Assembly (NCBI GenBank): GCA_902635865.1
Contig: CACPPD010000003.1
Span: 1 to 64,000 of the forward strand
DNA from: an uncultured Pelagibacteraceae bacterium
Lineage (GTDB): Bacteria > Pseudomonadota > Alphaproteobacteria > Pelagibacterales > Pelagibacteraceae
DNA length: 64,000 nt
Reading direction: 5' to 3'
Shown: positions 13,215-37,012 of the stretch, piece by piece
Layout: every line of letters starts with the position of its first letter
Position numbering within the stretch: the stretch's first letter is position 1
Notes under the pieces: generated by a model
The model's input: only the letters and a program-made list of their open reading frames with translations
What the model was told of the DNA's origin: nothing
The model's database searches: none
Position numbers and translations under genes: made by a program

Positions 13215-13300
13215 GCGGTCGTGCTGAAATTGGTAGACAGGCACGGTTGAGGGCCGTGTGGACTTAGTCCATGAGAGTTCGAGTCTCTCCGACCGCACCA
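13215..13300 (+). tRNA. tRNA-Leu (anticodon GAG), 3' CCA encoded
   Basis: Acceptor gcggtcg/cgaccgc, anticodon arm cacgg-ttGAGgg-ccgtg, variable arm tggacttagtcca, T-arm gagagttcgagtctctc, terminal acca. Confidence 0.95.
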
Positions 13301-19036: not shown

Positions 19037-20038
19037 ATGGATGTTAAATTAGAAAAATGGCATAAATGCCAAGTTGATATAGAAGTCCTCAAGGAACTCT
19101 CAAAAAAATCTGATTTAAAAGGGCTTCAACATGTTTCAGTTTTTTTTGGATTGTTATTAGTAACAGGGATTTTGGCTTATATAACTTGGGGCACATGGTG
19201 GTCTGTTTTTTGGTTTTTGGTTTACGGAAACATATATGGTTTTTCAAATCCATTATGGCATGAGACAGGTCATAAAACTGCTTTTCAATCAAAATTTTTA
19301 AATGAATTTTTTTACTATATTTCCTCATACCTCTCAAATTTTGAACCAGTAAGATGGAGATATACACATTTTGTTCATCATGGAAATACATACTCAACAG
19401 AAAATCCATATGATCATGAAATTGAATATGGAAATAATTTAAAAGAAACCCCAAAAAATTTATTAATAAATTTAATTCCTTTTATGGAACTTGTTTTTTT
19501 TAAAAAAAGTATAGCTTACGAAATTATTCTGCATGCATTGGGTGTAAAAACAAAAGTGATGCAAGATTGCATTCCTGAAAATGCACAATCAAAAGTTATT
19601 TTTAATTCTAGAATTTTTGTTGCAATTTGGATTGTAATTATTTTGTGGTCTTTAATTACATCATCTTGGTTGCCAGTTTTGTTTTTTTTATTACCAAAAT
19701 TTTATGGAAGAACTTTACATAAACTTGTTTCTTTTACTCAACATGCGGGTTTAGCAAGAAATATTAAAGATCATAGATATACTACTAGAGAAATGTATTT
19801 AAATCCTATTTTAAGTTTTTTATATTGGAAAATGGAATACCATGTAACTCATCACATGTTCCCAACAGTTCCATCTTATAATTTAGATAAACTTCATCAT
19901 CATATTAAAGATCAATTACCTAAAACAAATGATGGTTTAATAGATGCTTATAAAGAAATTTTACCTGCTTTGATGAAACAAAAAGAAGATTCTGACTACT
20001 TTTTTAAAAAGGAAGTCCCTGAACTACAAAATGCATAA
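19037..20038 (+). CDS. MocD-like membrane di-iron oxygenase / fatty-acid desaturase family
   Basis: His boxes HETGH, HFVHH, HVTHHMFP; QHAGLARNIKDHRYTTREMYLNPILSFLYWKMEYHV resembles MocD-type hydrocarbon oxygenases. Confidence 0.75.
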   Translation: MDVKLEKWHKCQVDIEVLKELSKKSDLKGLQHVSVFFGLLLVTGILAYITWGTWWSVFWFLVYGNIYGFSNPLWHETGHKTAFQSKFLNEFFYYISSYLSNFEPVRWRYTHFVHHGNTYSTENPYDHEIEYGNNLKETPKNLLINLIPFMELVFFKKSIAYEIILHALGVKTKVMQDCIPENAQSKVIFNSRIFVAIWIVIILWSLITSSWLPVLFFLLPKFYGRTLHKLVSFTQHAGLARNIKDHRYTTREMYLNPILSFLYWKMEYHVTHHMFPTVPSYNLDKLHHHIKDQLPKTNDGLIDAYKEILPALMKQKEDSDYFFKKEVPELQNA

Positions 20039-22272: not shown

Positions 22273-22788
22273 TTAATCATCTGCATGAACTTTTTCGTCT
22301 TTTTCATGCTTTTCTTGTGCAGCTATTGTGTATTTTGCTACAGGCCTTGCCATTAATCTTTTTAATCCAATTGGCTCCGCTGTATCCAAGCAATAACCAT
22401 AAGTATCCTCTCTAATTCTTCTCAATGCTTTATCAATTTCAGAGATTAACTTTATTTGTCTATTAATTGCTTTCATCTCAACATTACTATCAATATAAGA
22501 GTTAGCCTGATCAACAATATCAGCAGAAATATTATTATCATCCATACTACCATTATATAAGGCTTCGTTATTAGCTTTAATTAATTCTTTTTTCCACTCC
22601 GTTAGTCTTATTCTGAAATAGACTTTATGTTTTTCACACATATATTTTTCAGTATCTTTAGGAACATAAGTTTTTGAAATTTTTATAGGACCTTTGGGTG
22701 AAACTTTAGCTGTAGTTGTTTTTGCTTTGCTTGCAACTTTGGTTTTTGGTTTTGATACTTTTTTCTTTGCTTTAGCAGTCTTTGGCAT
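22273..22788 (-). CDS. dksA: DksA/TraR-family RNA polymerase-binding regulator
   Basis: LRRIREDTYGYCLDTAEPIGLKRLMARPVAKYTIAAQEKHE; Lys/Ala-rich N-terminal tail. Confidence 0.88.
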   Translation of the reverse strand: MPKTAKAKKKVSKPKTKVASKAKTTTAKVSPKGPIKISKTYVPKDTEKYMCEKHKVYFRIRLTEWKKELIKANNEALYNGSMDDNNISADIVDQANSYIDSNVEMKAINRQIKLISEIDKALRRIREDTYGYCLDTAEPIGLKRLMARPVAKYTIAAQEKHEKDEKVHADD

Positions 22789-22866: not shown

Positions 22867-24189
22867 ATGACCATTATTAACAAAAATATCAATAATATTT
22901 TTTATATTTTTGTTACAGCTCATCTAATTTTTTGGACCGTGATTCCATCAATAACAAATCATAATTTACCACTGGATACTATTGAGGCTTTAGCCTGGGG
23001 CAGTAATTTAGATTGGGGTTTTAATAAACATCCACCAATGAGTGCTTTTTTTCCAGAAATTTTATATCAAATTTTTGGACCACAAGATTGGGTATTTTAT
23101 TTGTTAAGTCAAATTTTTGTAATTATTTCTTTTTATTATGTTTTTAAATTTTCAAATGAAATATTTAATAACAAGGTATTAGGTTTAATTTCTGTATTAT
23201 TAATTGAAACAATTTATTTTTATAATTTCACTACACCAGAATTTAATGTAAATATATGTCAATTACCTTTCTGGTCTTTAACAGTTTATTACTCATGGAA
23301 AATATATATCAGTAAAGAAATAAAGTTTTTAGATTGTTTTCTAGTAGGTCTTTTTGCTGCTATTGGTTTTTTATCAAAATATCTATTTATTTATCTTTTG
23401 GTTTCAATTGATCTTTTATTTTTTTATTTAATATTTTTAAAAAAAGAGAGAAAATTTGATTTTAAATATCTAATTTCTTTTGAAGTTTTTTTATTAGTTT
23501 TAGTTCCACATTTAATTTGGTTATATAACAATGAATTTATTACCATTACATATGGATTAGCTAGAGCTGGATTAGAACAATCTAGTTTTATTGATCATAT
23601 AAAATTTCCATTAATCTTTTTATTAAAACAATTAGGAATAATGATTCCATTTTTAATATTATGTAGGCTATTAGTAAAAAAAATTAAATTGAATTTAAAT
23701 TTTAAGGATAAAAAATTACTATTTTTATTAGCAATTAATGTTTTGCCAATTGTTTTAATGTTTCTGACTTCTTTAATCACTGGATCAAAAATTAGAACTA
23801 TGTGGATGACGCCTTTTTATTTGTTTTTTGGCTCACTATTTATTTATTTGTTGCAAGCTCAAGTTAATCTTAAAAAGTTAAAACCCTTCATGATTGGATT
23901 TATTTTCTTTTTCTTCTTATCACCCGTGCTTTATGCTTATGTTTCAATTTCAAACGACGATAAGAGAACAGATTATCCAGGTAAAGAAATTTCAATAAAA
24001 ACTCAATATGCTTGGAACCAACAATTCAGTTCTACTATAAATGTAGTTTTAGGTGACGAATGGAGTGGTGGAAATCTTTCGTATCATTTAAATTCACGAC
24101 CAATTTGGGAAGGCGTTGTTGAAAGAGAAAAGCTTGATCAATTGAAAGATTATATGTGTCTTGATAATATTTGTGTAGGAGCAAGGTAG
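22867..24189 (+). CDS. ArnT/PMT_2-like integral membrane glycosyltransferase
   Basis: Multi-TM protein, DTIEALAWGSNLDWGFNKHPPMSAF motif typical of PMT_2 family. Confidence 0.75.
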   Translation: MTIINKNINNIFYIFVTAHLIFWTVIPSITNHNLPLDTIEALAWGSNLDWGFNKHPPMSAFFPEILYQIFGPQDWVFYLLSQIFVIISFYYVFKFSNEIFNNKVLGLISVLLIETIYFYNFTTPEFNVNICQLPFWSLTVYYSWKIYISKEIKFLDCFLVGLFAAIGFLSKYLFIYLLVSIDLLFFYLIFLKKERKFDFKYLISFEVFLLVLVPHLIWLYNNEFITITYGLARAGLEQSSFIDHIKFPLIFLLKQLGIMIPFLILCRLLVKKIKLNLNFKDKKLLFLLAINVLPIVLMFLTSLITGSKIRTMWMTPFYLFFGSLFIYLLQAQVNLKKLKPFMIGFIFFFFLSPVLYAYVSISNDDKRTDYPGKEISIKTQYAWNQQFSSTINVVLGDEWSGGNLSYHLNSRPIWEGVVEREKLDQLKDYMCLDNICVGAR

Positions 24190-25059
24190 ATGAAGTACGT
24201 GATATTAATTCCAATTTACAACGACAGAGAGTCTTTAAAGTTACTCGTAGAAAATATTAATAATGAAATTAAAGATTTAGATCATGAGATATCTTTAGTT
24301 GTGATAAATGATGCATCATCCCAACAGATAGTTGATACATACCCTAATATTGAGAATATTAATTCAATTGAGATAGTTAATATGAAAGAGAACAGAGGTC
24401 ATGCAAGATGTATTGCATCAGGCTTAAAATATATCTTTGAGAAAAAAGAATTTGATTTTGTCATACCAATGGATGGTGATGGAGAAGATAGGCCCGAAGA
24501 AATCAAAAATTTTATTGAACTTTCTAAACAATCTAGTGAAAAATCTTTAATAGGCGAGAGAGTAAAAAGATCTGAGGGAATAATTTTTAAAACTTGTTAT
24601 CAATTTCATAAATTTCTAACCTTAGCATTTACTGGACAATCAATCAAATTTGGTAACTTTACATGTCTATCCAAATCAACTGTAAAGAAATTACTAGATG
24701 AAAAAGCTACCTGGAATAGTTTTTCTGGATCTTTAAAAAAAATTGAAAAAGAATTAATTTCAATACCTTCAATTAGAGGCAAAAGGTATTTTGGTCCGTC
24801 TCAAATGAGTTTTTTTAACCTATTAAAACACTCACTTTCAATTATCAGCGTTTTCAGAAAAACAGTTTTAATTAGATCGGCTTTATTTATTATTTTTTAT
24901 ATATTACTGATCAAAAGCTATGCTTCAGTAATAACTTCATTACCATTAGTTTTGTTATTAATAATGATTTACTCAATTTCTAGTTTAGCTTTAAGAGAAA
25001 ATATTGATGAATTTAATAATTCCTTAACAAATATTCACGATATTGATAAAATAAAATAA
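24190..25059 (+). CDS. GT2-family glycosyltransferase (polyprenyl-phosphate sugar synthase-like)
   Basis: ILIPIYNDRESLKLLVENI, PMDGDGEDRPEEI, C-terminal TM helices. Confidence 0.85.
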   Translation: MKYVILIPIYNDRESLKLLVENINNEIKDLDHEISLVVINDASSQQIVDTYPNIENINSIEIVNMKENRGHARCIASGLKYIFEKKEFDFVIPMDGDGEDRPEEIKNFIELSKQSSEKSLIGERVKRSEGIIFKTCYQFHKFLTLAFTGQSIKFGNFTCLSKSTVKKLLDEKATWNSFSGSLKKIEKELISIPSIRGKRYFGPSQMSFFNLLKHSLSIISVFRKTVLIRSALFIIFYILLIKSYASVITSLPLVLLLIMIYSISSLALRENIDEFNNSLTNIHDIDKIK

Positions 25060-25061
25060 TT

Positions 25062-26501
25062 ATGAAGAACTTTTTTAGGAAAGTTGGTTATGGAATTGGA
25101 CCCAATGAACAAGTTCCCACCGATCCTTTGAAGTGGGCTCTTGATCAAGTAAATAATGTGCCAGATCTATCTTGGAAAGGTAAAATATATTCTGAAAAAG
25201 AATTAAGAAATCATTATAAAGATTGGGTATATGGCGATAGAAAAGTTTTAAGAAAAAAATATAAAGACAACAAAACACTTTATAAAACACATAAAGATTT
25301 ACTGAGACACAAAACTGGACAAAAGTTCTGGGAATCTTTAGAAATTTCAATAAGACATAATGAAGGAATTAATAGTAGTCATCCTGTCCTTGCAAAACTA
25401 TGGATGTTCTGGGGAAATTTTTTTGCAATTAGCGAAAAAGATTTCTTAGCAAATTATTCAACTGGTCCATATCATAGAGAAATTATTAGACCTAATCTAA
25501 ATCAAACTTTTGAAAAAATGGTTTATGACGTAACTACATCATGGGCCATGATACATCATTTAGATAATAGCGAGAGTGCAGGTCCTAAAAGTATTACTGC
25601 TAGTGAAGATTGGAGAAAAAAAAAGAAAAGGCCAGCAACGATTAATGAAAATCATGCGAGAGAACTTTTAGAGCTTCATACAGTCTCTCCAAAAGCAGGC
25701 TATACTCAGGAGGATGTTATTCAACTTGCATATATAATGACAGGTTGGCAACAAAGATGGAGCAAAAAAAAATTAGAGACAGGTAATGTTTGGTTTAATT
25801 CAGAATATCATCAGCCCGGTAAGAAAAATGTTCTAGGAAAGGAATATAAAAAAGGAAAAAAATCTTTAGCTGTAGTTATAAAAGATTTAGTAAATCATCC
25901 TAACTGTAGAGATTTTGTTGCTGAAAGACTTTGTAAATATCTAATAACTGATGAACCTACAAAAGAAATGAAACAACCTATTATTGATGCTTTCAAAAAG
26001 ACAGATGGATTTTTGCCTGAAATCCATAAAGCTGCAATTAAAGTTGCTTTCAAATATAATGACAAATATAAAAAATTTCAGACGCCAGAGAATTGGTTTA
26101 TACAAGTAGCTAAAACAGCTGATTTAAGTTGGCCACCTTCAACAGATCTTATGGATGGATATGAGCTAGGGATCAAGCCTCTTAGATCTCAAAGATTTCC
26201 TGAGAGAGTTTTAAGAAATATTGGACATCATCCTTATAGAGCAAAACAACCAAATGGATGGTCCGATGACTCTGCTGACTGGTTATCCCCGGAATTATTA
26301 ATAAGAAGACTAGTCTATGCAGACAGAAGTTATTCATTTCTGAAAGCTGGAAATGATAATAAAGAATTTTACGAAAAGATAATTAACAATAATTTTGATA
26401 ATCCAGGAAAAATATCAGACTACGTATTTAAAAATATGTTGCGTAAATCAAGTGAAAAAAATGTATTAATATTCAACCATCCGGAGTTTTTAAAAGCATG
26501 A
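25062..26501 (+). CDS. DUF1800 family protein
   Basis: INENHARELLELHTVSPKAGYTQEDVIQLAYIMTGW signature; followed by DUF1501 partner. Confidence 0.88.
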   Translation: MKNFFRKVGYGIGPNEQVPTDPLKWALDQVNNVPDLSWKGKIYSEKELRNHYKDWVYGDRKVLRKKYKDNKTLYKTHKDLLRHKTGQKFWESLEISIRHNEGINSSHPVLAKLWMFWGNFFAISEKDFLANYSTGPYHREIIRPNLNQTFEKMVYDVTTSWAMIHHLDNSESAGPKSITASEDWRKKKKRPATINENHARELLELHTVSPKAGYTQEDVIQLAYIMTGWQQRWSKKKLETGNVWFNSEYHQPGKKNVLGKEYKKGKKSLAVVIKDLVNHPNCRDFVAERLCKYLITDEPTKEMKQPIIDAFKKTDGFLPEIHKAAIKVAFKYNDKYKKFQTPENWFIQVAKTADLSWPPSTDLMDGYELGIKPLRSQRFPERVLRNIGHHPYRAKQPNGWSDDSADWLSPELLIRRLVYADRSYSFLKAGNDNKEFYEKIINNNFDNPGKISDYVFKNMLRKSSEKNVLIFNHPEFLKA

Positions 26502-27649
26502 AGATAAATAGAAGAGATTTTTTAAAAACAACTGCATTAACTTCCATGTACTTTGCAGGTTTCGGAATACCTACCTTTGCAAAATCAGGACCAAAGAAAA
26601 ATTTGGTCGTTGTCATGTTACGTGGTGGAATGGATGGATTATGTGCAGTCCCAATTAAAGATGATAAAAATTTTGAAAAACTTAGAAGTAAAATTAATCT
26701 TGATAAGACACTTAAATTAACGGGAGACTTTGATTTACATCCAGCACTTAAAACATTTAAGAAATTATGGGATGAAGATAATAGCGCTATAGTTCACGCT
26801 ACTAATATTCCTTATACTGGACGATCTCATTTTGATGGACAAAATTTAATGGAGTCAGGGGGAAAAATTCCATATCAGGTAAAAACTGGTTGGTTAGGAA
26901 GAGGTATGAAGACTGCTGGTTTAACCGGAAAAGGATTAGCTCTAGCTTTACCAATGCCTTTATTGATTAGAGGCGTACCTATGAATAATAATTATTTTCC
27001 AGTAGGTGACAGATTACCAAGTAAAGATACACTAAATCTTATAGATCAGGTTTACAAAGAACATGATGAAAAATTATTAGGAGAAAATCTTAAAATTATC
27101 ATGACTAGAGAGCTTACAAATACAGCGAGTGATGATAGTTGGGTGCTTGCAAGCAATGCAGGTCAAGAACTTTCAAAACCAAATGGGCCAAGAGTAGCTG
27201 TCTTTGAGGTAGATGGTTTTGATACCCATGCAGCTCAAGGATCAACTAACGGAGCTCACGCAGATTGTCTTAGTGATTACGATAAAATTGTAAAAGGTTT
27301 AAATCAATCAATGTCCAAAGAAACTTTTGATAATACTTTAATTGTAACACTGACTGAGTTTGGTAGAACAATAAAACAAAATAGCAGTAATGGAACTGAA
27401 CATGGCTATGGATCTGCTATTTTCTTAGCAGGAGGCTTAGTTAAAAAAGCTCAAATTTATACTGATTGGCCAGGATTAAAGAAAAAAGAATTATTTGAAG
27501 GAAGAGATTTAAATTCTACAATAGATTCAAGAGCAATATATGCTTCTGCAATGTCTACAGTCTTTGACGTAGATTTCAAAAAAATCACTAAAGAAGTTTT
27601 CTGGGGAGAAAATTTACTTAACTTATCTGATAAGCTTTTTAAGGTTTGA
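26498..27649 (+). CDS. DUF1501 family protein with Tat signal
   Basis: NRRDFLKTTALTSMYFAGFGIPTFA twin-arginine signal; VVVMLRGGMDGLCAVP, LTEFGRTIKQNSSNGTEHGYGS. Confidence 0.9.
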   Translation: MKINRRDFLKTTALTSMYFAGFGIPTFAKSGPKKNLVVVMLRGGMDGLCAVPIKDDKNFEKLRSKINLDKTLKLTGDFDLHPALKTFKKLWDEDNSAIVHATNIPYTGRSHFDGQNLMESGGKIPYQVKTGWLGRGMKTAGLTGKGLALALPMPLLIRGVPMNNNYFPVGDRLPSKDTLNLIDQVYKEHDEKLLGENLKIIMTRELTNTASDDSWVLASNAGQELSKPNGPRVAVFEVDGFDTHAAQGSTNGAHADCLSDYDKIVKGLNQSMSKETFDNTLIVTLTEFGRTIKQNSSNGTEHGYGSAIFLAGGLVKKAQIYTDWPGLKKKELFEGRDLNSTIDSRAIYASAMSTVFDVDFKKITKEVFWGENLLNLSDKLFKV

Positions 27650-28656
27650 TGAAAAAATTATTAATTATTTTTTTATCTTTCTTATTTTTTATTAATTCTG
27701 CAAATTCTCAATCGAGATTCGGTGAATTGACTGAAATACTAGACGAAAAAATGCGTGGTAAAAACAACCAATGGGTTAGACCTCATCCAGGACCTTTTAT
27801 TTGGAACCATATTGAAAAAGAAAAAGGAAAGTTTAATTGGGAAAATGTGGATAAATATGTTTTATATGCTCAAGATCATAATCAAACAATTTTAGCTACT
27901 ATCTGGCCTCATGCAAATTGGGAGCAAAAATCCTGTAAAAGAAAAAAAGCAAAAAGTCCTTTTGGAAAACGTTTTACAAAATATTTAAGCAAACCTTGTT
28001 CTATGGAGGATTATGAAAATTTTCTAGTAAAATTAGTGGATCGTTATGATGGTGATGGTTCAAATGATATGCCTGGACTAACCAAACCAATAAAATATTG
28101 GGATGTGATGAATGAACCAGAGTTTAAAATGTTTTTTAAAGGAAGTGAGCAAGATTTTGTAGAAATTTTTAATTTTTCTTCAAAAGTAATAAAAGAAAAA
28201 CAACCAGATGCAGTAATTGTTATGGCTGGTGCAGCAGGAATGTTTCCAGAAAGTAAAAAATTTTGGAAATCTGCTTTGCCAAAAATTAAAGATCATTTTG
28301 ATATTGCAAATATTCATCATATAAGTGGTCCCGACGGACAATGTGATAAAGAGCTTTGGGTAGATGAATTTGCTGAATTATTAAAAAGTGTGGATGTTGA
28401 AAAACCAATTTGGCTTACAGAAGCAATGACCTGCGGCCCACCAGTAAAAGCTTGGGTAAATGCATTTTTAAATGGAGCTGAGCTAATCATTGATGTTGGT
28501 GTCAATGCACCAGGTCCAAAAATGAGTAAAAAGGGCAGAAAACAATTAAATGAATTTATTTCTGAATACGATGGTTTTACATCAATTAAAAGCATTTCAA
28601 AAAAACAAGTAGAATTTACATACAGTGATGGATCTAAAAAAATCTTAGATTTTTAA
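27649..28656 (+). CDS. Secreted clan GH-A-like glycoside hydrolase
   Basis: Signal peptide; WDVMNEPEF (NEP acid/base, 28111-28119) and PIWLTEAMTCG (candidate nucleophile Glu, 28420-28422). Confidence 0.75.
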   Translation: MKKLLIIFLSFLFFINSANSQSRFGELTEILDEKMRGKNNQWVRPHPGPFIWNHIEKEKGKFNWENVDKYVLYAQDHNQTILATIWPHANWEQKSCKRKKAKSPFGKRFTKYLSKPCSMEDYENFLVKLVDRYDGDGSNDMPGLTKPIKYWDVMNEPEFKMFFKGSEQDFVEIFNFSSKVIKEKQPDAVIVMAGAAGMFPESKKFWKSALPKIKDHFDIANIHHISGPDGQCDKELWVDEFAELLKSVDVEKPIWLTEAMTCGPPVKAWVNAFLNGAELIIDVGVNAPGPKMSKKGRKQLNEFISEYDGFTSIKSISKKQVEFTYSDGSKKILDF

Positions 28657-28667
28657 TTAAGCATTTA

Positions 28668-30185
28668 ATGAAAAAAATTTTATTAATATTTTTTGGTTTA
28701 TTTTTATTGAGTTTAAATGCTTATTCTAGTGAAAAAGTTATCAATGAAAAAATTTCATTTAAACCTTTTAAATGTGAGCAAATAAAATCAGAATTTATAA
28801 GAACTAAATCTGAAAACAATTGTTTAATTATTCAGAAGCTAGAAAATCATTATCAGGTTAAATCACATGACTATTCAATTAATACTTGGAATTCTCCTCA
28901 ATTATTAAAATATATAAGCAACAAAGATGGAAATAAAATTATTGCTCATACTTGGAATAATGTAGTTGAGTGGGGAAAACAATCTGACATACAACCATTT
29001 TCGCATCTTGTAAGTATAAGTTTAGAAAATTTAGATAATTTATTTAAAACAGATAATTTAGAATTAAAATCTAATCATTTAACATTGCCTTTAACGGCTA
29101 GAAGAATGAATGTTTTGGATATTGATAGCGATGGAAATAAAGAAATAGTTTATCTAGGTAATCGTGAAGATGGGAGAAACAGAAATAGCAGCTGGAAAGA
29201 TGTTAATTATATTTTTAATTTAAATTCAAATGAATTAAACAGTTTTGGATCACCTCATTTTTCTCATGATTTAATGTATTTTGATTTTAATCAAGATGGA
29301 TATTATGAAATTATTGACTACTTTTATGGTGACCAAAAACCTGGTGCTATCGAAGTTTGTGATATGAAAACCAATAAATGTCGTAAAGCTAAAAAAGCAA
29401 ATAATTTCATAGACATTGGATTTAATCATATTCTTTCAACAAAAAAAGGAGCAATTATTTTTGGAAGTTGCCCAGGTTTGGGAAACACAACTTTTTGTTG
29501 GTCTAAAGTAACTAGTAAAAAAAACAAATTAAAATTTGAAAAACTTGATAGCTATCAATTTAAAAAAAAACCGACTGATAAAGCAAACTTCCTTATATGG
29601 ACAGGAGATATAAACGATAAACCTGGTTATTGGGTAGAAGGATCAGATAAAAAAGTTTTTAAAATGGCTGATCGAGCTTGGATTTCTACTGCTATTGATT
29701 TCAACAAAGATGGTAATTTCGATAGTATTGGAGTTGCTAAAGATGTAGTTTGTAAGCGAAAAGATAATTCAAAACCATTTGATCGTGGAAAAGATTGTAA
29801 GACAGAAGAGTTTTTATATGTTTTTAAAAACAATGATGACAAGTCATTTGAAAAACATCAGGTAATGCCAGTTTCCCTAAATGGTTCATTTAGAATTGAA
29901 ACTGCTGACATAAATAAAGATGGAACCGATGACCTTTATGGTTTTAAAGAGGATTGGTTTAATCCGTGGATAGATTGCAAAAAACAAGTAAGTGCAATGT
30001 ATTTTAATCAAGACAATAAATCTTTTGAACAAGCATCTAAATCATTTAATCAAGAAAATTTTGGCTTATATGGTTGTGAACGAGCTTCTAGTTTTTTTAA
30101 AAACAATAATAATTATTATAGATTATTTATTACAATACCTTCTACAGACTCAAAGTTTGCTTATTTGGGGATTGAAAGATATTAG
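28668..30185 (+). CDS. Secreted FG-GAP/VCBS-like repeat protein
   Basis: Signal peptide; repeated DxDxDG-like Ca-binding loops: DIDSDGNKE, DFNQDGYYE, DFNKDGNFD, DINKDGTDD. Confidence 0.75.
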   Translation: MKKILLIFFGLFLLSLNAYSSEKVINEKISFKPFKCEQIKSEFIRTKSENNCLIIQKLENHYQVKSHDYSINTWNSPQLLKYISNKDGNKIIAHTWNNVVEWGKQSDIQPFSHLVSISLENLDNLFKTDNLELKSNHLTLPLTARRMNVLDIDSDGNKEIVYLGNREDGRNRNSSWKDVNYIFNLNSNELNSFGSPHFSHDLMYFDFNQDGYYEIIDYFYGDQKPGAIEVCDMKTNKCRKAKKANNFIDIGFNHILSTKKGAIIFGSCPGLGNTTFCWSKVTSKKNKLKFEKLDSYQFKKKPTDKANFLIWTGDINDKPGYWVEGSDKKVFKMADRAWISTAIDFNKDGNFDSIGVAKDVVCKRKDNSKPFDRGKDCKTEEFLYVFKNNDDKSFEKHQVMPVSLNGSFRIETADINKDGTDDLYGFKEDWFNPWIDCKKQVSAMYFNQDNKSFEQASKSFNQENFGLYGCERASSFFKNNNNYYRLFITIPSTDSKFAYLGIERY

Positions 30186-30489: not shown

Positions 30490-31299
30490 ATGAATATAAG
30501 TCAAAAAAAACTTGAAAAATCTAGGGGCAGATTAGAAATAAAAATTAAAGATCAAAATTTACAAAAACTTTACCAACAAGGATCTTCAAAAGCTTTGATG
30601 CCAGATTTTCATGAAAATTTAAAACAATTAATGCTTATCAACACTGCCGGTGGAATTACTAGTGGAGATGAATATGATTACAAATTTGAAATTGATAGTT
30701 CGAAACTTTGTATATCAACTCAGGCAGCAGAAAAAATTTATAGTGGTTTTGGTAATCCAGCCAACTTAAATATAAACTTAAATTTAACAAACAATTCTAG
30801 TCTATTTTGGTTACCTAAAGAACTAATTTTATTTAATAATTGTAATCTAAAAAGAAAAATTAATTTCAATTTATCAAAAGACTCGAATTTACTTCTTTGT
30901 GAAAATGTTATTTTTGGACGAACTTCTATGAAGGAGGAGTTTGAAAAGGGATATTTTTCAGATTTTTGGAATATTAATGTTGATAATAAATTAATTCATG
31001 CCGAAGCAATAAATACAGGTTTATTCGAAAAAAAATATTTGAATAGTTTTTCGACATTAAATAATAATTCTGCAGTTGCGACAATTATTATTGTAGGAAA
31101 TAAGTTTTTGAATAACTTTAATAATCTATCTGAAACTTTAACTAATAATGAAAATACAACTTCAAATTATTCTCAATGGGATAATAAATTGATCGTAAGA
31201 CTTTTATCTAAAGATAGTTATAATCTTAAATTTGCAATTGATAAAATTTTGTCATATTTTTTTGAAGGTTCAAAGATACCAAAAGTATGGAATATATAA
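30490..31299 (+). CDS. ureD: Urease accessory protein UreD
   Basis: LMLINTAGGITSGDEYDYKFEID, TQAAEKIYSG; first gene of urease locus. Confidence 0.92.
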   Translation: MNISQKKLEKSRGRLEIKIKDQNLQKLYQQGSSKALMPDFHENLKQLMLINTAGGITSGDEYDYKFEIDSSKLCISTQAAEKIYSGFGNPANLNINLNLTNNSSLFWLPKELILFNNCNLKRKINFNLSKDSNLLLCENVIFGRTSMKEEFEKGYFSDFWNINVDNKLIHAEAINTGLFEKKYLNSFSTLNNNSAVATIIIVGNKFLNNFNNLSETLTNNENTTSNYSQWDNKLIVRLLSKDSYNLKFAIDKILSYFFEGSKIPKVWNI

Positions 31300-31602
31300 A
31301 TGAAACTTACTCCTAGAGAAAAAGATAAACTTTTAATAAGCCTTGCAGCGATTGTCGCTAAAAATAGATTATCAAAAGGTATAAAATTGAATTATCCAGA
31401 AGCAATAGCTTTAATAACAGATTTTGTAGTAGAGGGAGCTAGAGAGGGTAAAAGTGTTGCAGAACTCATGGAGGCAGGAGCTCATGTTGTTAAAAAAAAG
31501 GATTGTATGGAGGGCATTCCAGATATGGTGAAGGAAGTTCAAGTTGAAGCTACTTTTCCTGATGGAACTAAATTAGTAACAGTGCACAAACCTATTAGAT
31601 GA
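31300..31602 (+). CDS. ureA: Urease gamma subunit
   Basis: [52 protein letters not shown]. Confidence 0.97.
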
Positions 31603-31609
31603 TAATATT

Positions 31610-31915
31610 ATGAAGCCAGGTGAAATAATTACAAAAAATGAGCAAATAGACTTAAATAAAGATACCAAAGTTACTAAGATAAAAATTTCTAATTCTGGAG
31701 ATAGACCTGTACAAGTTGGAAGCCATTATCACTTTTTTGAAACAAATGAGTATTTAGTTTTTGATCGAGAATTAGCATATGGAAAAAGATTAAATATCCC
31801 ATCAGGAACCGCCGTAAGATTTGAACCAGGTCAATCTAAAGATGTTGAGCTTATAGAAATTAATGGATCAAAAAAAATATACGGGTTCAATAAGAAAGTT
31901 ATGGGTAATTTATAA
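31610..31915 (+). CDS. ureB: Urease beta subunit
   Basis: [33 protein letters not shown]. Confidence 0.97.
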
Positions 31916-33621
31916 TGGCTAAAATTTCTAGAGCAGCTTATGCAGATATGTATGGGCCAACCACAGGAGATAAAGTAAGGCTCGCAGATACTGACTTATT
32001 TATCGAGGTTGAAAAAGATCTAACTACTTATGGTGAAGAAGTAAAATTTGGTGGTGGAAAAGTAATAAGAGATGGGATGGGCCAATCTCAAATTAGCAGA
32101 GAAAAAGGAGCTGCTGATACTGTTATTACCAACGCTTTAATAGTTGATGTAAACGGAATTTATAAAGCTGATGTTGGCTTAAAAGATGGAAAAATATTTG
32201 AAATTGGTAAAGCTGGTAACCCGGACACTCAATCTAAAGTAAATATTATTATTGGTCCAGGAACAGAGATAATTGCTGGTGAAGGAAAAATTTTAACAGC
32301 TGGAGGTTTTGATAGTCATATTCATTATATTTGTCCCCAACAAATTGATGATGCATTGCACTCAGGTATTACAACCATGCTTGGAGGAGGAACTGGACCT
32401 GCTCACGGTACACTTGCAACAACGTGTACTCCTGGACCATGGCATATACAAAGAATGATTCAATCTGCTGATGGTTTTTCTATGAATTTAGCTTTTGCTG
32501 GGAAAGGAAATTCTTCATTACCAGAAGGTCTTGAAGAACAAATTCTAGCAGGAGCTTCAGCATTAAAATTACATGAGGATTGGGGAACCACTCCTGGAGC
32601 AATTGATAATTGTTTAAATATTGCTGACAAAAATGATGTTCAAGTAATGATTCACACAGACACTTTAAATGAAAGTGGATTTGTAGAAAACACTATTAAA
32701 GCAATTAATAAAAGAACTATTCACGCTTTTCATACAGAGGGTGCTGGCGGCGGACATGCACCAGATATAATTAAAGTTTGTGGAGAAGAGTATGTTATTC
32801 CTTCTTCAACAAACCCGACTAGGCCGTACACAGTTAATACAATAGAAGAACATTTAGATATGCTTATGGTTTGTCACCATCTCGATAAATCTATTCCAGA
32901 GGATGTAGCATTTGCTGAAAGTAGAATAAGAAGAGAAACAATTGCAGCGGAAGACATTCTTCATGACATGGGAGCTTTTTCAATTATTGCATCAGATAGT
33001 CAGGCTATGGGAAGAGTCGGAGAGGTTATAATTAGAACTTGGCAAACTGCACATAAAATGAAAGTTCAAAGAGGAAGTCTACCAGAGGAAAAAGGGGATA
33101 ATGATAATTTTAGAGTTAAAAGGTATTTAGCAAAATATACAATTAATCCAGCAATTGCTCATGGAATTTCAAAACATATAGGTAGCATTGAAAAAAATAA
33201 ACGTGCAGATTTAGTTTTATGGGACCCAGCATTTTTTGGTGCCAAACCTGAGATGATATTAATAGGTGGAAGTATAGCTTGTGCGCAAATGGGAGACCCA
33301 AATGCATCAATTCCAACTCCACAACCAGTATACACTAGACCAATGTTTTCATCATTTGGGACGTCGTTAGAAAAATCCTCGGTAATTTTCACAAGTAAAC
33401 TAGCTCTTGAAAAGAATTCATTAAAAGATGCAAGTATTAGAAAAGACTTATTACCTGTAGAAAATACGAGATCTATTTCTAAAAAAGATATGATTTTAAA
33501 TAATAAGTGTCCAAAGATTGAAGTTAATCCTGAGACATATGAAGTAAAAGCTGATGGAGAAATAATTACTTGTGAACCAGCCAAAGAACTCCCTTTGGCA
33601 CAAAGATATTTTATGTTTTAG
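31915..33621 (+). CDS. ureC: Urease alpha subunit
   Basis: Ni ligands and active site: [20 protein letters not shown] (carbamylated Lys), [29 protein letters not shown]. Confidence 0.98.
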
Positions 33622-33624
33622 CTT

Positions 33625-34068
33625 ATGGATAATTGTTTTTTAATAGTTAATAAAATTGCCAAAAATAAAGCAAAAGACCACATATCTTTATCTTATGATG
33701 AGAGATTTTTAAGAAGAAAAAAACTTATTTCAGATAATGGTTTTGAATTTTTAGTCAATTTACCAGAGACAAAATCACTTTCAGAAAATCAAGCATTTAG
33801 GCTTCAAAGTGGAAACTTGATTTTAATAAAAAACAAAAAAGAAAGTTTACTTGAAATAAAAGGTAAAAATTTAATGCAACTTATATGGCATATTGGAAAT
33901 AGACATATGCCATGTCAAATTGAAAAAGATAAAATTTTTATTCAGTACGATGAAGTAATAAAAAAAATGATATTAAAATTAGGTGGAAAGGTTAAGAGAG
34001 TTTTAAGACCTTTTAAACCAGAGGGAGGAGCATATGGAATTGGTAGAACCCATAGCCATAAACACTAA
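33625..34068 (+). CDS. ureE: Urease accessory protein UreE
   Basis: LIWHIGNRHMPCQIE, His-rich tail RTHSHKH. Confidence 0.9.
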   Translation: MDNCFLIVNKIAKNKAKDHISLSYDERFLRRKKLISDNGFEFLVNLPETKSLSENQAFRLQSGNLILIKNKKESLLEIKGKNLMQLIWHIGNRHMPCQIEKDKIFIQYDEVIKKMILKLGGKVKRVLRPFKPEGGAYGIGRTHSHKH

Positions 34069-34714
34069 ATTAAAAAATAAAAAAGATTTGAAAGAGTCTT
34101 TACAAATTCTTCAAACTTGGTTTTCACCATCATTTCCTATTGGAAGTTTTTCATATTCTCATGGTTTAGAAACGATGATTAATGATAATCTAATTAAGTC
34201 AAAAGAAGATATGTTGGATTATTTAAAATGTATCTTAAAACATGGAACTGGTAAAAATGATGTAATTTTAATGAAACATACTTATCAGGGAGAAGAGTTA
34301 AATGAACTCGCTCTATCACTTTGTCCAAGCAAAGAAAGAAAAATTGAGTCTGTTGAAATGGGTAATGCATTTAGAAAAGTTTTAGCTGATAGTTGGGATT
34401 TTAAAATTCTTGAAAATACTGCATATCCAATTGCAGTTGCTAAAGCAGCCAAACATTTTGATATACCCTTAAATTTAACAACTGTATCTTATCTACAATC
34501 CTTTGTATCAAACCTAATAAATGTTTGTATTAAACATATACCAATCGGACAAAAAATTGGTCAAGACTGTATAATTCAGACTTATGATTTAATTAGAGAA
34601 ATAGAAAAAGAAAGTGAAAATTTAAATTTAGAAGACTTAGGTGGAATTTGTTTTAATAGTGATATCTACAGTATTAAGCATGAAAATTTAAAAACACGAA
34701 TTTATAAAACATGA
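34034..34714 (+). CDS. ureF: Urease accessory protein UreF
   Basis: [21 protein letters not shown]; overlaps ureE by about 35 bp, so the start could be further downstream. Confidence 0.92.
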
Positions 34715-35322
34715 AAAATATAAATGGACCATTAAAAGTTGGAATAGGTGGACCTGTTGGTGCAGGAAAAACTAGTTTGACTGCTGAACTGTGTAAATTT
34801 TTGTCAAAGAAAATTTCTATGGCTGTAATATCAAACGATATTTATACAAAAGAAGATGCAGAATTTTTGATGAAAGTTCAGGCTTTACCTCTTGAGAGAA
34901 TTAAAGGAGTTGAAACAGGAGGGTGTCCACATACTGCAATCCGTGAAGATGCTTCAATTAATATGCTTGCTGTAGAAAATATGAAAAAAAAATTTCCTGA
35001 TCTTGATTTGATTTTAATCGAGTCTGGTGGAGACAATTTAGCAGCAACTTTTAGTCCTGAATTAGTTGATCTATCTATTTATGTTATTGACGTTGGTATG
35101 GGTGGAGATATCCCTAGAAAAGGTGGCCCTGCTATTCAAAAATCAGACTTGTTAATTATTAACAAGACAGATTTAGCTCCTCATGTAGAAGTTAATCTGG
35201 AAACCATGAAAGAAGACGTAAAAAAGGCCCGAAATGGCTTACCTTATGTTTTTTGTCAGATGAAAAAACAAATCGGTGTCGAAGATGTTGCTAAATTCTT
35301 ATTTTCATCAGGTGGACTATAG
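34711..35322 (+). CDS. ureG: Urease accessory GTPase UreG
   Basis: [48 protein letters not shown]. Confidence 0.97.
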
Positions 35323-35331
35323 AGTTTTTTT

Positions 35332-36618
35332 TTATGCTCTAATCGTTGGTAAACAATAGAAATCAGCTGTATCAATTTTAGAAGAATACTGCCTTCGCAT
35401 ATTCCACTTCTTATGAACACCGGCACTTGCAACGCTCAAAGTCGATCTTCCGTATCGATGATTAGTATTATCAATTGATCGCATCAAGCTATTTATTTTT
35501 TCATCCTTTTCAGATGTAAATAAATTTGTTTTATCACTTGCATTCGATAATCCTGTTAGCATCACACCTGCTTTTTGATAACGGTAACCGTTTTTAAAAA
35601 TACTCTCAAGTATTGAAACTGCTGTCTTAACTGTTTCAATACTATTGTTTGTTGCAATTGGAAAATCAACTGTCTTTGCGTTTGAATAATATCCAAAGTT
35701 TCTTTGGAAAGGACTAGTTCTAACAAATACTGTAATTGCTTTTGCAACTAAAGACTCTGATCTAATTTTTTCGGATGCATTTAAACAATAGTTAGCAACT
35801 GCTTCTTTTAATTCTTGAAAAGTTTCAATTCTTTTCCCAAATGATCTTGAAACAACACAGCTCTTTCTTTTTGTTGTAGTTGTCTCTAAACCTATGCAAG
35901 AAATTCCTCTAAGCTCCATTGCGGTTCTTGAACTTAGAACATTAGAAGATTTTTTGATCCAGGTATTAGATTTATTCTTAAGTTGTTTTGCATTATAAAT
36001 TCCGTGCTTTTGATAAAATTTAGTTAATTGTCTACCAACACCCCAAATATCATTAATTTCAACTTTTTCTAAAATAGGATCTAAGTTTTCAATACCAATT
36101 AAACTTGTCACCCCTGATTGTTTTTTCTTTGCAATATGATTTGCAACTTTACTTAAAGTTTTTGTATTAGCTATTCCAATACTGGTTGGAATACCTGTCC
36201 ATTGTAAAACTGTTTCTCTAATTTCTTTTCCAACTTTTTCTACTTCAGTATCAGGAAAGTTTGATAAATCTAAAAATGCTTCATCAATGGAGTAAACTTC
36301 TATTTCTGAATTAAATCTTTTAAGAGTTCGCATCACTCTTCTTGATAAATCTCCATATAAAGAATAGTTTGACGAGAAAACTTCAACTTTATTTTTAAGA
36401 ATAATATCTTTTGCTTTAAAGTAAGGCTCACCCATTTTAATCCCTAAAGCTTTTGCTTCATTTGATCTTGAAATAATACAACCATCATTGTTAGATAAAA
36501 CAACAACAGGTTTTCTTCTTATTTTTGGATTAAATAATCTTTCACACGAAACGTAAAAAGAATTACAATCAATTAATGCTATTTTTTTAGTACGTTGAAT
36601 GGATGACATAAGTAACAA
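35332..36618 (-). CDS. umuC: Y-family DNA polymerase V subunit UmuC
   Basis: [49 protein letters not shown]. Confidence 0.95.
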
Positions 36619-37012
36619 CTCCCCAAATAAAAATATCTTGTTCTTCGTTAATTAAAATTCTGTCAGAAAATTCTTTAGATCCAGAAGTTAAAAATTTTTT
36701 ATCTCGTTCTTGAACTAAAGTTTTAACCACAAGCTCGTCATGAACATTAGCAATTACTGTTGAAAAGTTTTTTGGTTTTAAACTTTTATCCACCACCAGT
36801 AAGTCACCATCATTAATCCCAACATCGACCATTGATTTACCTTGAACTCTAATGATGAAAGTTGCCGGAACATTTCTTATTAAATGCATATTCAGATCAA
36901 TATCTTCCTCGATATAATCAGTAGCAGGGGAAGGAAAACCAGCGCCTGCTTTATGTAGATAATAAGGGATTGTTAGTTTCATGTTCTTGTTTTGTTCTAC
37001 TTTATAAACCAT
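36587..37012 (-). CDS. umuD: UmuD (S24 LexA-like autoprotease)
   Basis: [20 protein letters not shown] cleavage region, [20 protein letters not shown] catalytic Ser, ELVVKTL catalytic Lys. Confidence 0.93.

Follow-up and report, generated by a model that had tools for sequence, protein, structure and literature searches.

The window analysed here is a 64,000-nucleotide stretch of contig CACPPD010000003.1, from an uncultured member of the Pelagibacteraceae. Its SAR11 origin is borne out by Rfam matches to the SAR11_0636 small RNA (sRNA) and the 5' ureB sRNA. SAR11 bacteria are among the most abundant marine cell types. The assembly holding the window is 0.93 Mb long and 75% complete. Six genes that lie side by side in the window code, in order, for an ArnT-like PMT_2 membrane glycosyltransferase, a GT2 glycosyltransferase, a DUF1800 protein, a DUF1501 protein, a putative glycoside hydrolase (GH) and an FG-GAP repeat protein (Table 1). 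The first two belong to the SAR11 core, and the other four occupy a slot whose content differs among relatives. On balance, and with modest confidence, we take this slot to be a modular SAR11 cargo site for exported glycan-cleaving enzymes, headed by a pair of proteins that would be exported by twin-arginine translocation (Tat), and serving most likely in nutrient scavenging.

Gene content and packing

Family-wide presence was counted in 197 Pelagibacteraceae genomes. In addition, a search with the hydrolase in a named genome collection gave 140 loci, 80 of which, all from Pelagibacteraceae, were kept (the single-cell loci below). Open reading frames were called mechanically, chimeras are possible in single-cell assemblies, and kinship among the genomes inflates all of the p-values given here.

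The six genes share one strand, in the order and close spacing that an earlier reading of the DNA (the sequence-only reading) had described, and their intergenic gaps are -4 to +11 nt. One start was corrected: the hydrolase probably begins at the ATG at 27649, which overlaps the DUF1501 stop codon by one base, and not at the TTG at 27646. Gaps in the related single-cell slots have a median of 2 nt (n = 279), and all 23 DUF1501-GH gaps fall between -4 and -1; because these short gaps and overlaps recur across relatives, the packing of the slot genes exceeds chance. The single transcription unit proposed as likely in the sequence-only reading is also supported, and a promoter and terminator scan, with scores not above those of shuffled sequences, speaks neither for nor against a single transcript. 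The motifs that had been named are in place as well: the DUF1501 protein opens with a Tat signal (MKINRRDFLK), the hydrolase has NEP and TE motifs at residues 156-158 and 258-259, and the last protein carries four DxDxDG loops (residues 151, 206, 344 and 414).

Table 1. Genes of the six-gene run, the slot and its flanks (window coordinates)
Feature	Position	Strand	Remarks
dksA-like gene	22273..22788	-	Label by similarity; conserved left neighbour, adjoins PMT_2; 43/80 single-cell loci
PMT_2 (ArnT-like) membrane glycosyltransferase	22867..24189	+	Pfam PF13231, E=2.7e-28; fixed left flank of slot
GT2, polyprenyl-phosphate-sugar-synthase-like	24190..25059	+	PF00535, E=5e-12; core partner of PMT_2
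DUF1800	25062..26501	+	PF08811, E=6e-70, 237 vs cut-off 26.1 bits; first slot gene
DUF1501, Tat signal	26498..27649	+	PF07394, E=8e-25, 88.3 vs cut-off 27 bits
Clan GH-A-like hydrolase (predicted), signal peptide, variable cargo	27649..28656	+	PF00331, sub-threshold
FG-GAP repeat protein, signal peptide, variable cargo	28668..30185	+	PF13517 (FG-GAP_3), E=1.5e-8
Urease operon, optional slot occupant	30490..35322	+	Presence/absence across relatives' loci
umuC and umuD-like genes	35332..37012	-	Labels by similarity; conserved right neighbour of slot in genus

Three evolutionary units and a variable slot

PMT_2 is found in 163 of the 197 genomes and is a SAR11 core gene; GT2 adjoins it in all 19 PMT_2 loci examined, nearly all of which are without DUF genes. 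DUF1800 occurs in 13 genomes, all of which also carry DUF1501; a single unrelated genome has DUF1501 as well. DUF1800 always adjoins DUF1501, so that the two form a strict two-gene unit. The hydrolase is present in eight genomes (in four of these away from the slot) and the FG-GAP protein in three, as well as in six of the 80 single-cell loci. Pairwise protein distances correlate closely within the two pairs (r=0.95 for PMT_2-GT2 and r=0.93 for DUF1800-DUF1501), and just at 0.42-0.63 when either pair is compared with the other or with the hydrolase. The run thus consists of three evolutionary units rather than one co-inherited system, and a six-gene operon of common descent was rejected on the presence counts together with the distance correlations.

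The sequence-only reading had regarded the six genes as one coupled system, which was not supported: the genes show no co-occurrence as a set. A dedicated apparatus for building, glycosylating or remodelling a surface glycoprotein, in which GT2 and PMT_2 would be the catalyst and the DUF, GH and FG-GAP proteins their partners, nevertheless draws support from the tight same-strand packing in the window and its relatives, and from the DUF pair being commoner beside the hydrolase than expected for the genus (4/4 genus genomes with GH in the slot versus 9/47 others; Fisher p=0.003). Against it, most genomes have PMT_2-GT2 without the rest, DUF-bearing slots mostly lack both the hydrolase and the FG-GAP protein, and distances among the three units correlate poorly; we consider such a system very improbable.

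The PMT_2-GT2 pair resembles the ArnC/ArnT undecaprenyl-phosphate sugar synthase/transferase in the adjacency of its genes and in combining a GT2 with two C-terminal transmembrane segments and a multi-spanning PMT_2, but the window GT2 reaches 59 bits against the 529-bit cut-off of the ArnC equivalog. In one locus (L265) a more distant copy of the hydrolase (71%) sits between PMT_2 and GT2, and the insertion point of the slot is therefore not strictly after GT2.

Exchange at the slot follows gene boundaries, and the DUF pair and the hydrolase are exchanged independently of each other. When the DNA of locus L025 is compared with the window, the flanks are 86-93% identical and the DUF pair between them 67%; homology breaks fall at gene ends, at start or stop codons (e.g., 27649 and 30182). 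Mean identity is 84% for the hydrolase where it is 57% for PMT_2, which suggests that the hydrolase has been exchanged between clades, or alternatively that it may evolve more slowly.

In relatives the left boundary of the slot is formed by dksA-PMT_2-GT2 and the right boundary by umuC/umuD. Its occupants range from nothing at all (GT2 directly beside umuC in L081, L082 and L087) through phosphoenolpyruvate (PEP) carboxylase, urease or lyases to the DUF pair, alone or followed by cargo, and most single-cell slots hold 3-7 genes after GT2. A urease operon is at the slot in L024, L025, L035, L038 and L039 and is missing there in L031, L032, L034 and L037, and GMP-reductase-like genes are also among the occupants. 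In one genome the slot contains a fusion of an ammonium transporter and a SpoIIE-type phosphatase domain (716 aa; L086:9328-11478). The 80 single-cell loci include 53 complete GH-containing slots, in which the DUF pair nearly always stands directly after GT2; it is present in 42 of the 53, a rate that is not unbiased, the loci having been selected through the hydrolase, and that differs from the genus-wide frequency (13/51) in the ascertainment and relatedness of the sample.

With syntenic flanks, variable content and empty versions, the slot has the features of an additive flexible genomic island, in agreement with the variable island in a streamlined genome that had been suspected; it is larger than the six-gene run. 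Like such islands and the SAR11 hypervariable regions (HVR1-4), it combines fixed flanks and variable content with niche relevance and with no visible mobility genes; unlike them, it lies elsewhere and its content is exported glycan-cleaving enzymes, where theirs is lipopolysaccharide (LPS) synthesis. In strain HTCC1062, HVR1-4 comprise coding sequences 42-54, 523-568, 1162-1173 and those from 1214 (PMC2217521), and the position of the slot matches none of them as tabulated there. The slot is located beside the rhodopsin gene and the SAR11_0636 sRNA, a region for which just two one-gene indels have been reported (PMC2217521). Two vehicles for the exchange were rejected. Against a tRNA-targeted integrative element, the window has a single tRNA, at 13215, and the slot proteins examined include no recognisable integrase. 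For phage-borne cargo, viral contigs were queried with single sequences, which detect close relatives only, and gave no relatives of the hydrolase, of DUF1501 or of a slot lyase; the only phage match is a xylanase of Caulobacter phage Cr30 (21% identical).

The DUF1800-DUF1501 pair

The structure model of DUF1501 has the fold of the alkaline phosphatase (AlkP) superfamily (PDB fold search, probability 1.00, best E 3.9e-7). The top PDB matches are carrageenan and other carbohydrate sulfatases, at modest TM-scores of about 0.33-0.46. Residues S110-H111, D242-x-H244, E287 and H302 are invariant in the alignment and, by analogy, would fit a metal site with a Ser nucleophile, for which Ser110, placed at the N-terminus of a helix in the model, is the candidate. 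A Type I (formylglycine) sulfatase was rejected, since the C/S-x-P-x-R motif is absent from the alignment (by eye), the AlkP-superfamily fold notwithstanding. The model of DUF1800 is all-alpha (predicted local distance difference test score, pLDDT, 91.4; predicted template modelling score, pTM, 0.92) and had no match in a PDB fold search at E<=0.001; the protein apparently adopts an undescribed all-alpha fold. It contains an invariant motif, NENHARELLELH, which could bind metal.

The Tat motif RRxFLK is present in 47 of 51 DUF1501 sequences (NRRDFLK in the window), and a hydrophobic or signal N-terminus is present in 0 of 48 DUF1800 proteins. Of 30 genomes, 28 have TatC; none was detected in the incomplete genome of the window. 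Because DUF1501 carries the Tat motif, DUF1800 has no signal and TatC is widespread, it is plausible that DUF1800 is exported as a hitch-hiker together with DUF1501.

The order DUF1800-DUF1501 is kept in other alphaproteobacteria, where most DUF1501 proteins are 24-36% identical to those of SAR11, versus 55-59% for two relatives with small genomes. A DUF pair of the SAR11 type was observed in two such alphaproteobacteria, with genomes of 1.4 and 1.6 Mb (L168:7611-10222 and L169:7386-9970; about 50-59% identity), which are possible donors or recipients of the pair. In other bacteria, DUF1800 and DUF1501 accompany chitin-synthase genes (PMC5122149). The SAR11 pair is like that operon in the adjacency of the same domains, the Tat motif on DUF1501, horizontal transfer and a glycan context; it differs in that no chitin synthase was recognised in the SAR11 slots and in its divergent, SAR11-type branch of DUF1501.

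Predicted exported cargo and its likely purpose

Slot genes of the relatives match Pfam families of polysaccharide lyase (PF14099), alginate lyase (PF05426), sulfatase, beta-lactamase-like (serine-hydrolase-like) hydrolase and FG-GAP protein; sulfatase, urease or PEP carboxylase is added in some slots only. In the PL5-type cargo, the catalytic N, H, R and Y of alginate lyase A1-III align with those of PDB entry 1hv6, with N202, R250 and Y257 invariant and the H kept in 6 of 7 sequences. The lyase, GH, beta-lactamase-like and FG-GAP families have signal-peptide-like N-termini in 90-100% of their members, compared with 0% for DUF1800.

The hydrolase of the window falls just short of family GH10 (PF00331, E=2.5e-4; 20.8 bits, below the 22.1-bit cut-off), and a PDB profile search found no relative. 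All 81 homologues compared share N156, E157, P158 and E259, and the putative catalytic Glu codons are at 28114-28116 and 28420-28422. Judged from these residues, it appears to be a clan GH-A-like enzyme in which the NEP motif and the second Glu, and hence both catalytic Glu residues, are kept. Directly upstream of the hydrolase, 17-19 of the 80 single-cell loci carry a secreted Met/Gly/Ala-rich protein of 814-824 aa together with a small partner (L024:12347-15267, L028:10458-13624); the large protein has no match in Pfam.

The lyases are concentrated at the slot. In the genus, the 15 kb downstream of PMT_2, about 1.2% of the genome, hold all eight PF05426 genes and 19 of the 47 PF14099 genes (for the latter, binomial p about 1e-24 if the genomes are taken as independent). 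This enrichment bears on the view that the site is a general recombination hotspot without common function, in which any gene can insert between GT2 and umuC and lyases turn up because they are common among SAR11 accessory genes. The urease, PEP carboxylase, ammonium-transporter fusion and GMP-reductase-like genes would be expected of such a hotspot, but the lyase enrichment, the export signals on most of the short cargo and the regular place of the DUF pair after GT2 make it improbable.

In the arrangement that we favour, a lead module of DUF1800 and DUF1501 would be followed by exchangeable genes for glycan-active proteins exported through the general secretory (Sec) pathway. DUF1501 would be a Tat-exported ester hydrolase of the AlkP superfamily that takes DUF1800 through the membrane with it, the two moving as a folded pair, and the Sec-exported hydrolases and lyases would act in the periplasm or at the cell surface, where they would depolymerise fragments of acidic polysaccharides or oligosaccharides. 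Through differences in cargo, close relatives may attack different dissolved glycans. The substrate and purpose of these enzymes are inferred. Urease, PEP carboxylase and ammonium-transporter genes, all concerned with nutrients, share the slot, which speaks for acquisition; together with the lack of recognised polymer synthesis genes in it, this makes scavenging the preferred purpose.

Like polysaccharide utilisation loci of the SusC/D or TonB type, the slot brings together exported lyases, a glycoside hydrolase and sometimes a sulfatase, and arrays of PF14099, PF05426 and GH genes provide the co-located depolymerases, with export predicted. It differs in that no SusD, carbohydrate-binding module or regulator was recognised among the annotated slot proteins. 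Several observations weigh against scavenging by way of polymer breakdown. The TonB-dependent receptor barrel (PF00593) was found in 0 of 20 genus genomes, with controls positive in 3, and the unsaturated-uronide hydrolase GH88 (PF07470), sought for the GH88/105 step, in 0 of the same 20; a complete classical polysaccharide pathway is therefore not visible, and a classical polysaccharide utilisation locus was rejected. No glycan-type cargo surrounds the DUF pair in the two non-SAR11 genomes with its closest relatives, so that the pair may be tied to glycans by position only, and selection of the loci through the hydrolase tempers the DUF-pair rate noted above.

As the complete degradation pathway was not detected in these 20 genomes, the main rival is self-editing of the cell surface by slot products. 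The lyases and hydrolases would then trim an envelope glycan or exopolysaccharide of SAR11, as AlgL and PslG do in Pseudomonas, altering adhesion, grazing or phage attachment, and GT2-PMT_2 would decorate the same surface. The core envelope-type glycosyltransferases in the same packed run and the missing uptake and catabolic genes agree with this, as do the company that DUF1800 and DUF1501 keep with chitin-synthase genes elsewhere (PMC5122149) and an extreme variability like that of surface loci such as HVR2 (PMC2217521). On the other side, the slots examined yielded no recognisable polymer synthase, export or LPS genes, PMT_2-GT2 evolves independently of the cargo, and metabolic genes occupy the same slot. 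Moreover, the lyases require uronic-acid polymers, which SAR11 is not known to produce. We regard self-editing as unlikely, though deserving of serious consideration. The extracytoplasmic glycan theme of the sequence-only reading is in any case supported, and of the envelope glycan system that it envisaged, the cleaving or remodelling part finds support and the building or glycosylating of a glycoprotein does not.

SAR11 is usually described as a small-molecule scavenger with a narrow glycan niche (PMC10322874). If scavenging by exported enzymes is correct, some SAR11 cells would cut polymers themselves, an ability not usually credited to them, and relatives would partition the work through gene exchange. 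The slot would also offer a tractable context for DUF1800 and DUF1501, which are widespread and uncharacterised families. Somewhat more tentatively, it may represent a previously undescribed cassette-exchange locus, in which cell-variable exported lyases and hydrolases join a Tat-exported two-protein module (an AlkP enzyme and a protein of new fold) in breaking down dissolved acidic polysaccharides without TonB receptors, so that individual cells would differ in their direct part in this process; earlier descriptions of the slot may exist beyond the open-licence literature.

Two further observations concern the neighbourhood. In L188 and similar loci, the right neighbour of the slot is instead a sulfatase that lacks a signal peptide; after it come genes resembling those for a tripartite ATP-independent periplasmic (TRAP) transporter and ring-cleavage catabolism (by eye). 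In the window, a desaturase-like gene at 19037-20038 stands between the rhodopsin and ferredoxin genes; it is missing in L031, L032 and L036 and kept in some relatives, and its position is a second small variable spot.

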